A stretch of 25,619 bases of DNA. Origin: a virus. How positions within the stretch are numbered: the stretch's first letter is position 1; each line of letters opens with the position of its first letter. Both the position numbers and the translations under genes were made by a program. Location of the stretch: the IMG/VR virus record IMGVR_UViG_3300027805_000080, positions 1-25,619 of that record; one strand, 5' to 3'. Positions 2,941 through 22,883 of this stretch are shown here, in pieces. A model generated the notes under the pieces. The model saw only the letters and a program-made list of their open reading frames with translations. It was not told the origin of the DNA and made no database searches.

Positions 2941-3197
2941 TCTAAATTATCCTTTAACCATCCAATAACGGTCCATTGTTTTACTACAAAAGTTCCATCA
3001 CCAAACACTGGATTAGCAAAATCGTTCAGAATTTCAAATGGATTTTCCGGATCATCTAACCTAACACCATGCTGTTTACAGAAACCAATCAATTCATCTC
3101 TATCATAAAATATCTTGCTGGGACCATGGACACCGGGCATTTCGAATGTGAATGATTTCCTCCATAATCCTATGTCTCTGGGATAAAAGGTAATCAT
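2937..3197 (-). CDS. Hypothetical 86-residue protein
   Basis: Starts MITFYPRDIGLWRKSFTFEM. The ATG at 3197 overlaps the stop of MNERIKEL copy C and uses the GGAG in its FGV codons. The longer reading frame upstream is not used, because it would lie within copy C. The middle has FYDRDELIGFCKQHGVRLDDPENPFE, and the end is WTVIGWLKDNLE. It looks like a compact alpha/beta protein; no family recognised. Confidence 0.65.
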   Translation of the reverse strand: MITFYPRDIGLWRKSFTFEMPGVHGPSKIFYDRDELIGFCKQHGVRLDDPENPFEILNDFANPVFGDGTFVVKQWTVIGWLKDNLE

Positions 3198-3394
3198 TCT
3201 GAAACTCCGAAATGTCTTTTCAGTTGAGTACAATATGCTTTTCCGGTTAGCATGGCGTAATTCTCTTCGCCAATAACGTCGATACATTCCCGAACAATCA
3301 ACTCGGCAAACTTTTCCAGTTCCTGCGAAGAAAGTAAATAGTTGGGGCCGGTAAATCCTTGTTTTTCGGCAAGTTCTTTAATTCTTTCGTTCAT
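3194..3394 (-). CDS. MNERIKEL-family small protein, copy C
   Basis: The shortest copy, 66 residues: MNERIKELAEKQGF, EKFAELIVRECIDVIG, then RHFGVSE. It is the first gene of the overlapping operon running to the left edge. A short AGGA precedes the ATG closely, and a sigma-70-like promoter lies just upstream (3405-3434). Function unknown. Near-identical termini among copies A-C make it a natural substrate for unequal recombination. Confidence 0.75.
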   Translation of the reverse strand: MNERIKELAEKQGFTGPNYLLSSQELEKFAELIVRECIDVIGEENYAMLTGKAYCTQLKRHFGVSE

Positions 3395-4681: not shown

Positions 4682-4915
4682 TTAGTCAACTACCCCGAAC
4701 CTCATCTTGATCATCTTGCCGCAGCTTTGAGCAGTGGCCTTAGTCTTAAGAGCCAGCTCGTCGGAGTTGATGTTCTCGGCGATGTCAGCAAGACTCTCAC
4801 ACTGCCGGACACATTCCTTGACGATCAGCTCGGCAAACTTCTCTACCATTTCACTCTGCGCATCGAAAGGGGAAAATCCAGCGTTCTTTGCAAGTTCACG
4901 AATTCGTTCGTTCAT
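4682..4915 (-). CDS. MNERIKEL-family small protein, copy D
   Basis: 77 residues from the ATG at 4915, chosen because AGAGGATTGA lies just upstream and because it restores the family start MNERIRELAKNAGF; six extra upstream codons are possible. The middle has VEKFAELIVKECVRQCESLAD and the end is MRFGVVD. Unlike copies A-C, its stop is TAA and does not overlap the next start, and its GC content is higher. It sits behind its own promoter (4941-4969), away from the other three copies. Function unknown. Confidence 0.72.
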   Translation of the reverse strand: MNERIRELAKNAGFSPFDAQSEMVEKFAELIVKECVRQCESLADIAENINSDELALKTKATAQSCGKMIKMRFGVVD

Positions 4916-4940
4916 TTCAATCCTCTCAGTCATTCAAGCT

Positions 4941-14294: not shown

Positions 14295-15485
14295 TCATAT
14301 TAAATTTGAAAGCCGATATGATGTCGCTGCAGCAAGGGTCCATCCTAGGTGGCCGTGGCCACCATGATACCACAATCCATCCGATTTGCTTTTGATAATC
14401 ATGGGCAGCATGTCACTTGACATGGGCCTTAGACAAGCCCAGCGAGAATATACCGTAGTGTTTATGGATGGGAAATTTTCATTTACCCAGTTCAGCAATG
14501 GTTTAATTCTATCTTGGCATATATCTAGATTGTTTCCATCTAGTTCTGCTGTTCCCGCTACTCTAAGTCTGTTTCCCAGTAGCGAACATACTATCTTTTT
14601 ACTATCATCAAGCAGTGAAATTTCTGGTGCTGATGCTGCCTCAGGTATAGTTATAGAATATCCTTTTACAGGATAAATGTTAAGATAATCACCATGCGCG
14701 AAAGACCACTTTGTCATTTCATGCCCATTGCAAAGAACAACTGCATCATATGATTCATGTATTCTTTCGTCTATATCATTCTGCTTATAAATTATATTTT
14801 TGCCACCAATACCTATAACATCTGTATTAAATTTAAAAGTAGTACCTAATGATTCACAGACAGATTGTAACTTTTGGCAGAATAAATGGGCATCACCCGT
14901 CCAATCAGACATCGTTAGAAAACCACCCTTAAGATTTTTAAAATCACGCATTCCTTTATCGCGTTGGATTATTTCTTCAGGTGTTAGGAATTTCCATTCA
15001 ATACCATTATTTTCAAAAAGTGATTTAGAGCTGTATGCTTCTTCTATTGATTTTTCATCTGAGTATACGTGCATAATGCCACTTTGACGCCTATCAAATT
15101 CTATTTGTTCTGAGTCAATAAGCTGCTCATACAGTTGTTGCGATTGCTTTGCCAACATTATAGTTCTAATAGTGTTTCTTTCATGAGTGTTATTAAGCAC
15201 GTGTCTTAAAAAACCAGCAAGCCAAAAAATCTTTGATGGGGTTGGCATTGGCCTAATAAGAAGAGGCGCATCTTTCTTAAGCATCCACTTTAACCCCTTC
15301 TTTACGTTATTCCACGTATTCCATGTTTCAGAATTACATACTGAAAATTGCCCGCCATTAGCATAAGAGCATTTCATGGCGGGTGATGGTTCTCTGTCAT
15401 AAACAGTTACGGAATGATTCTTCTTCGTTAGATAATACGCAGATGTCATTCCTACTATTCCAGCGCCTATAATTGCTATCTTCAT
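14295..15485 (-). CDS. FAD-dependent D-amino acid dehydrogenase-like oxidoreductase (DadA family)
   Basis: 396 residues. A dinucleotide-binding Rossmann motif GAGIVG (7-12) is followed by VYDRE, which ends the second strand; the C-terminal GGHGHLGWTLA (about 373-383) is the typical FAD-contact region of DadA-type enzymes. These oxidatively deaminate D-amino acids (or sarcosine/glycine in related groups) and pass electrons to an acceptor. It ends about 25-35 residues earlier than E. coli DadA (432). Its ATG overlaps the stop of the polymerase C-half gene (ATGA), so it is translated in the replication operon. Such an enzyme is rare in phages; substrate is uncertain. Confidence 0.85.
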   Translation of the reverse strand: MKIAIIGAGIVGMTSAYYLTKKNHSVTVYDREPSPAMKCSYANGGQFSVCNSETWNTWNNVKKGLKWMLKKDAPLLIRPMPTPSKIFWLAGFLRHVLNNTHERNTIRTIMLAKQSQQLYEQLIDSEQIEFDRRQSGIMHVYSDEKSIEEAYSSKSLFENNGIEWKFLTPEEIIQRDKGMRDFKNLKGGFLTMSDWTGDAHLFCQKLQSVCESLGTTFKFNTDVIGIGGKNIIYKQNDIDERIHESYDAVVLCNGHEMTKWSFAHGDYLNIYPVKGYSITIPEAASAPEISLLDDSKKIVCSLLGNRLRVAGTAELDGNNLDICQDRIKPLLNWVNENFPSINTTVYSRWACLRPMSSDMLPMIIKSKSDGLWYHGGHGHLGWTLAAATSYRLSNLI

Positions 15486-16051
15486 ATAATTCCTGATGAT
15501 ATTAGGTGTAATTGTAAAACAATAACCATAGCATATGCTATAGCATGCGATTTTTTAAAGGAGTAACCAGTTTCATCTTTTGAATAAAGAATTCTTCTGG
15601 TGGCTTCTCTTTGTGTTTTATATAGTTTAATAAATTGTTTTTTGCCCGGCCTTATGAGAGCCAAGACGTCTGCTAGTTCTTCTATTGACTTGGGTCTAAT
15701 AGAATCAAGAACTTCTCCGTGATTTGATAATTGAAATAATTTCTTTTGGTGTTTAGGGTCAACCAAAAGTTGCCAGTCTGGTTCAATTTCCAAAAGTTGT
15801 TCGATTTCTTCTCTTGATTTAAAGTTATCATACACACTTAAATGAAGAAAATCTATCTTGAAAAAGCCCAACTGCTCTGCACTTTGGTATGGAATTGCAC
15901 ACAACTTGGTTACTTGATCTACAGGAATATTTTGTGGATGAACGCCACAGGGGTGAGGATACAATTGCCCATCCTTTACCATGCTCGCTCTTACCCATGG
16001 AAAAATATTCATAGGATTAAATGATGTGGGTGTGTCAATATCTATATCCAT
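15482..16051 (-). CDS. DnaE-type DNA polymerase, C-terminal half of a split catalytic core
   Basis: 189 residues. It begins with MDIDIDTPT, matching the catalytic PDFDxDF strand of DnaE (E. coli D401/D403). HPCGVHPQ (about 33-40) corresponds to the KHAGGVV block, and GFFKIDFLHL (62-71) holds the third catalytic Asp (D67). LFQLSNHGE, LALIRPGKK (131-138) and SFKKSHAIAYAMV (164-176) follow the order of DnaE. The GRGS block that normally precedes PDFDxDF is absent here but ends the protein at 22374-22883. PHP, beta-binding and tau-binding regions are absent. The start overlaps the upstream stop (TGATG). Together the two proteins would make a minimal C-family palm/fingers. Confidence 0.85.
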   Translation of the reverse strand: MDIDIDTPTSFNPMNIFPWVRASMVKDGQLYPHPCGVHPQNIPVDQVTKLCAIPYQSAEQLGFFKIDFLHLSVYDNFKSREEIEQLLEIEPDWQLLVDPKHQKKLFQLSNHGEVLDSIRPKSIEELADVLALIRPGKKQFIKLYKTQREATRRILYSKDETGYSFKKSHAIAYAMVIVLQLHLISSGII

Positions 16052-22373: not shown

Positions 22374-22883
22374 TTAATCATGGAAAAATTCTTCTAACGG
22401 TATGTTAAACCTGATTGGGTCTACTTTATGAAGACCTAAAATGAACAAAACTAGAGATGCACAAGATGATCCTCTTCCCACTCCCCAAAGAGTATTTGTT
22501 TCCTTTAAGACATCTACGACATAAATTAGCGCTCTAAAAACATCGGTTAGTTTTCTAGTCTTTATTTCATGCAATTCTCTTTCGGCGCGATGTTCATAAG
22601 CATGCCCCAATTTACTTGCTTTCTGCATTATTAAAGAATCTAAATCTAGATTTAGATATTCTTGAGGTATTTTCCATGAAAAGTCAGGATCAAATACTGA
22701 TTTTGACTCTGCACCTATTTCATAATCAGAAAGATTATTAAACAGCTGTATATCTTCATTCAGATAATTGACAATTATTTTTTCCTGTTCGACACCACTT
22801 AAAAATAGCGATGGGACGTGCTCAGGATTAACCTGATTAGTCCCGTCAAAGTAAAGAATTCTATCTTTTAGTTCAGTCTTCAT
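22374..22883 (-). CDS. DnaE-type DNA polymerase, N-terminal half of a split catalytic core
   Basis: 169 residues. The C-terminal third is clearly DnaE-like: LWGVGRGSSCASLVLFILGL (133-152) followed by HKVDPIRFNIPLEEFFHD, matching the GPGRGSGAGSLVAY...DLDPLRF...FERFLN block. It stops exactly where DnaE would continue to PDFDxDF, which begins the protein at 15482-16051. The preceding helices (residues 72-130, with HAYEHRAERELHEIKTRKLT) correspond to the region just before GRGS. There is no PHP domain. The start overlaps the preceding gene by 11 bp, and there is no ribosome binding site of note. It should bind template/dNTP phosphates but cannot catalyse alone. Confidence 0.85.
   Translation of the reverse strand: MKTELKDRILYFDGTNQVNPEHVPSLFLSGVEQEKIIVNYLNEDIQLFNNLSDYEIGAESKSVFDPDFSWKIPQEYLNLDLDSLIMQKASKLGHAYEHRAERELHEIKTRKLTDVFRALIYVVDVLKETNTLWGVGRGSSCASLVLFILGLHKVDPIRFNIPLEEFFHD

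Follow-up and report, generated by a model that had tools for sequence, protein, structure and literature searches.

A DadA-like FAD-dependent dehydrogenase gene recurs in uncultured phages and adjoins a DNA polymerase fragment in a jumbo-phage contig

We analyzed one metagenome contig of 25,619 bases (25.6 kb) that IMG/VR records as a virus. This contig, the whole of which we call the window, is a fragment of a jumbo-phage genome and encodes a DadA-like dehydrogenase, dadA (Table 1). The reading frame starts with ATG and stays open for 396 codons without an internal stop. As an earlier note on this DNA had described, it overlaps a polymerase piece by ATGA, with its start codon lying on the stop codon of the upstream gene; since an AGGA motif also stands 5 nt before the ATG, translational coupling of the polymerase fragment and dadA is plausible from the sequence. 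In the direction of transcription, dadA is followed by a gene that encodes a poly(A)-polymerase head domain and then by an RlaP-like gene. The base composition of dadA (GC 0.377, GC3 0.30) is in line with that of its neighbors, and promoter- or terminator-like sites around the gene were found at no more than chance level.

Table 1. Features at the dadA locus, in window coordinates.
Feature	Position	Strand	Basis or remark
DadA-like FAD-dependent D-amino acid dehydrogenase, 396 aa	14295..15485	-	ORF, Pfam/NCBI family matches, model, tree
ATGA overlap: polymerase-fragment stop (TGA) and dadA start (ATG)	15482..15485	-	Sequence
AGGA Shine-Dalgarno-like motif, 5 nt before the dadA ATG	15491..15494	-	Sequence
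Upstream gene: DNA polymerase III alpha fragment (finger part, starts at catalytic MDIDID), 189 aa	15482..16051	-	Pfam; phrog_11778; neighbor, outside the enzyme
GxGxxG FAD-binding glycines, residues 7-12 (GAGIVG)	15450..15467	-	Invariant in 45 aligned sequences and E. coli DadA
Cys351-Leu352-Arg353	14427..14435	-	Arg353 aligned with the glycine oxidase carboxylate arginine; Cys351 a phage-clade signature (Gly in bacterial relatives)
His377-Gly378-His379	14349..14357	-	His379 common to bacterial PRK12409 relatives; Thr in E. coli DadA

The polymerase III alpha subunit, of the bacterial type in the piece just upstream of dadA, is present in the window as separate small pieces 6.3 kb apart, namely a 169-residue protein ending in FFHD (22374-22883, minus strand) and the fragment that adjoins dadA. 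Both are related to pieces found in jumbo phages, for instance Xanthomonas phage XacN1 and Stenotrophomonas phage RAS14. Short families in PHROGs correspond to these pieces, and related phages retain a separate C piece of about 190 residues that begins with MDIDID or MDVDVD, so the division seems to be old and widespread within this group of jumbo phages. The window also contains a set of repeated short proteins (1704-1937, 2695-2940, 3194-3394 and 4682-4933, all on the minus strand) with an MNERIKEL start and a FAELIVRECV-like stretch in common, and a family related to them occurs near dadA in other phages.

Adjacency to the polymerase piece is particular to the window phage. A different ORF follows the same piece in XacN1, and at two further loci (L013 and L014) other genes come after it, ahead of one similar to the RlaP-like gene. 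A 336-kb record that contains L014 as well as L103 has dadA and the polymerase piece roughly 30 kb apart. Only one of six related polymerase-bearing records carried dadA at all, with no match in the other five. As dadA is thus absent or distant from the polymerase piece in relatives, it is an accessory gene of variable place, and its assignment to a replication operon in the earlier note applies to the window and does not extend to the relatives.

The window gene is a real, intact gene for a complete flavoenzyme of the DadA group with a predicted DAO fold. Its product matched PF01266 (DAO) end to end (205 bits against a gathering score of 27.9, profile positions 1-350 of 353), and its best NCBI family was PRK12409 (NF009074, D-amino acid dehydrogenase, 410 aa) with 414 bits over profile positions 3-401 of 410; both matches are far beyond chance. 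PRK00711, the E. coli-type DadA, came second with 315 bits. The curated equivalog cut-off of PRK12409 (494 bits) was reached neither by the window protein nor by five phage relatives (399-480 bits), the curated cut-off of PRK00711 (383 bits) was likewise missed, and all six phage proteins scored below the cut-offs of both D-amino acid dehydrogenase families. The models of glycine oxidase ThiO (TIGR02352; 99.8 bits, cut-off 250.8) and of the MnmC flavin domain (TIGR03197; 69.1 bits, cut-off 174.2) were missed as well. While the phage proteins are 386-404 aa long, the nearest bacterial ones mostly measure 407-422 aa as trimmed. The shortfall of about 30 residues at the C-terminus that had been pointed out before holds against E. 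coli DadA only and, far from being a defect, is a trait of the whole phage clade. Since phage relatives share the short C-terminus and the closest curated family is itself only 410 aa long, the protein is not truncated; truncation or decay was rejected also in view of the good model and of the low dN/dS among phage copies.

An AlphaFold model built from a 45-sequence alignment reached a mean pLDDT of 94.6 and a pTM of 0.92. The closest solved chain was a glycine oxidase (Z 38.5, rmsd 2.1 over 335 residues), followed by heterotetrameric sarcosine oxidase (Z 37.4) and a proline dehydrogenase (Z 37.2); MnmC is among the chains with the same fold, and a viral structure library offered no close match (best TM-score about 0.6). 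About 49 columns are invariant over the phage, bacterial and E. coli DadA proteins, including the FAD glycines (G7, G9 and G12) and Arg353, which aligns with the arginine in the WAGLRP motif of glycine oxidase, Arg302, the ligand of the substrate carboxylate. With the fold matched from end to end and these residues in place, the proposal of a complete FAD oxidoreductase was borne out. The position of a substrate-near tyrosine of glycine oxidase, Tyr246, is occupied by Ile298, and by Ile in E. coli DadA too. Ten columns set the phage proteins apart from the bacterial ones, among them Cys351, two residues from Arg353, and as some of the ten lie near the presumed active site, the substrate may differ.

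Upon scanning IMG/VR with a ten-sequence alignment, we obtained 369 places encoding relatives, a count that may include some host DNA, and fetched the best 80 of the 369, a set that leans toward sequences near that of the window; a second scan aimed at closer kin of the window gene gave nearly the same loci. The DadA-like dehydrogenase is hence a recurrent gene of uncultured phages, and with relatives at hundreds of IMG/VR loci, the previous supposition of their rarity in phages is wrong where uncultured phages are concerned. A search of 50,697 phage records returned four matches only, all named Acinetobacter phage MD-2021a, and no cultured phage record with dadA. We left these four out of the phage count, as the one locus that was read has the chromosomal genes fumC, argF, glnG and ispF; judged by the gene content of this one stretch, the records of this name (among them L363, CAKLQH020000012.1) are apparently misfiled bacterial chromosome.

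In trees that were computed quickly, with SH-aLRT values in place of bootstrap, 57 non-redundant phage proteins fell on one side of a branch (support 97) that separated them from 35 bacterial proteins. After 27 bacterial proteins had been added, most of them drawn from 60 genomes within a single order, all 57 phage proteins examined still formed one clade (99), whose sister was a bacterial PRK12409-like clade (98), with E. coli DadA outside both. This nearest cellular clade is annotated as D-amino acid dehydrogenase and neighbors the one that contains E. coli DadA. Within the phage-only clade, the closest company of the window protein is L099, L102, L103 and L109, at 51-56% identity, and a recent transfer from a bacterium is unsupported in the sampled genomes. 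Phage copies are under purifying selection, with a median dN/dS of 0.11 and a maximum of 0.21 (Nei-Gojobori; 88 pairs with dS under 2), values that cover the phage relatives, the window gene itself being too distant from any of them for the test. It is extremely improbable that dadA is a stray host fragment, a product of chimeric assembly or a decaying gene, because the patchy occurrence among polymerase-bearing records and the origin of the window from a single contig, which would fit such an accident, are set against the position inside the phage-only clade, the local base composition, the absence of internal stops and the low dN/dS among relatives.

The neighborhoods of dadA in the 57 phages were varied. 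Within 5 kb we found QueD in 23 phages, UvdE in 14, an epimerase in 14, NrdB in 13, a class II aldolase in 12, glutaredoxin in 10, QueE in 9, FolE in 8 and NrdA in 7, where Pfam backs the names QueD, UvdE, aldolase and FolE, as well as GlyA, and the remaining names were given by eye; neighbors were co-directional with dadA in 87% of cases. In one phage lineage (L003, L005, L008 and L009), a porin-like and an AhpC-like gene, also named by eye, lie close to dadA. Much of this pattern could reflect gene blocks inherited together from common ancestors, so such neighbors are leads and not proof.

Phage glyA, encoding serine hydroxymethyltransferase, is widespread in viral contigs, and dadA stands beside it in L185-L188, L212, L260 and L262. 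In a search seeded with glyA, dadA adjoined it in 7 of 80 phage loci, directly upstream wherever both ends were visible, and in other relatives dadA sits next to nrdA/nrdB or, in some, close to thyX. Together with the glycine and sarcosine oxidases at the top of the structural matches, these pairings would suit an enzyme that oxidizes glycine, D-serine or sarcosine for one-carbon and thymidylate supply, with glycine removal pulling GlyA toward methylene-tetrahydrofolate in phage DNA synthesis. We consider this unlikely, although it is the next best explanation after the oxidation of D-amino acids, given that glyA occurred in only 3 of 23 dadA contigs, that most glyA loci have no dadA nearby, that the ThiO score is far below its cut-off and that Ile298 replaces the glycine oxidase tyrosine as it does in E. 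coli DadA.

The frequent QueD, the QueE lying directly downstream of dadA in 7 of the 57 phages, and FolE, together with the fold shared with MnmC, raise the alternative of a role in modifying DNA or RNA, in which the enzyme would resemble the MnmC flavin domain or the flavin-dependent thymidine hypermodification enzymes and act on a pterin or modified base at its aminomethyl or amino-acid group. This is highly improbable: no QueD lies near dadA in the window, L099, L102 or L103, the MnmC model was missed by a wide score difference, and the DadA-type signature is intact. Moreover, QueC scored above its cut-off in just 1 of 32 dadA or related records, on which ground a full 7-deazaguanine pathway was rejected as a general partner. 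Many phage dadA genes have a gene for a QueD-like protein next to them (L104:6540-7043, L109:7013-7513, L011:6853-7356 and L004:6236-6748). This protein retains two E. coli QueD residues, Cys27 and His31, but has Tyr in place of the zinc ligands His16 and His33; by these residues it may be no ordinary QueD.

Peptidoglycan contains D-amino acids, and action on D-alanine or other D-amino acids of the host wall had been proposed in the earlier note. The enzyme would then remove them to alter the wall or envelope (for lysis timing or the exclusion of other phages) and not to feed metabolism. No wall or lysis gene was recognized as a recurrent neighbor within 5 kb of dadA in the 57 phages, and we regard this role as improbable; it is, like base modification, less supported than one-carbon supply. 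A phage alanine racemase was found in none of 23 contigs, and therefore any D-isomer would come from the host.

With moderate confidence, we propose that the phage protein is an auxiliary dehydrogenase that draws on small D-amino acids of the host, among which D-alanine is the most likely, and turns them into keto acid, ammonia and electrons for respiration, where we infer the substrate, the electron acceptor and the benefit to the phage. In this scheme, Arg353 would hold the carboxylate of a small D-amino acid, of which host-supplied D-alanine is the likeliest, a hydride would pass from the alpha-carbon to FAD, and the resulting imino acid would be hydrolyzed to keto acid and ammonia, while the reduced flavin would hand its electrons to a host acceptor, probably a membrane quinone as in E. 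coli DadA. During infection, alanine or wall-derived D-alanine might in this way yield pyruvate, ammonium and respiratory electrons as the phage replicates. Among the roles suggested earlier, which included wall remodeling and moonlighting, a supply of electrons and nitrogen from host D-alanine appears to fit best. Oxidation of D-amino acids is the best reading in light of the DAO and PRK12409 matches, the high-confidence model, the conserved residues, the annotated sister clade, the median dN/dS and the many contexts in which dadA appears as a stand-alone gene. Counting against it are the family scores below cut-off, the ten phage-specific columns, some of them near the presumed active site, and neighbors in relatives that suggest nucleotide and pterin metabolism no less than the use of alanine. 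It is conceivable, if unlikely, that the phage clade constitutes a distinct infection-specialized enzyme with a substrate preference of its own, marked by Cys351 and the stretch of residues 49-60, whose amino-acid oxidation is coupled to phage deoxynucleotide, one-carbon or pterin synthesis and not to alanine catabolism.

Among known enzymes, bacterial PRK12409 proteins resemble the window protein in the end-to-end match, in 39-46% identity to 12 aligned members, in their place as sister clade and in the same FAD, Arg353 and His379 residues, whereas the window protein falls under the family cut-off, has a shorter C-terminus and carries the phage-specific columns. E. coli DadA shares 33% identity and the DadA signature positions but differs in its longer C-terminus, in the Thr at His379 and in belonging to a separate clade. 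Glycine oxidase ThiO (PDB 4ysh, 1ryi), with its matching carboxylate arginine, and the beta subunit of heterotetrameric sarcosine oxidase are the closest solved folds (Z 37-38.5), yet their identity is about 15-21%. D-arginine dehydrogenase of P. aeruginosa (3nye) is also a D-amino acid dehydrogenase of the same fold (Z 33.5), but is only 15% identical, and nothing here points to a basic substrate.

A wastewater virome study includes dadA once in a list of transcribed virus-borne auxiliary genes that also holds queC, queD and queE (PMC11183165), a likeness by gene name. Beyond this entry, our literature search on phage D-amino-acid dehydrogenases or glycine oxidases yielded nothing, and passages of a paper that deals with D-amino-acid use and a Shewanella prophage name no phage-borne dehydrogenase. 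Viral dadA is hence already known as an auxiliary gene, and the new part is the separate phage clade with its signature residues. The window gene is mostly an expected metabolic helper and not a one-off oddity: uncultured phages carry a recurrent DadA-like gene on a branch of its own, kept by purifying selection. If active, the enzyme would let phages tap the D-amino acids of the host for electrons, carbon and nitrogen, and its recurring neighbors (nrd, que and gly genes) provide a testable link to DNA precursor supply.
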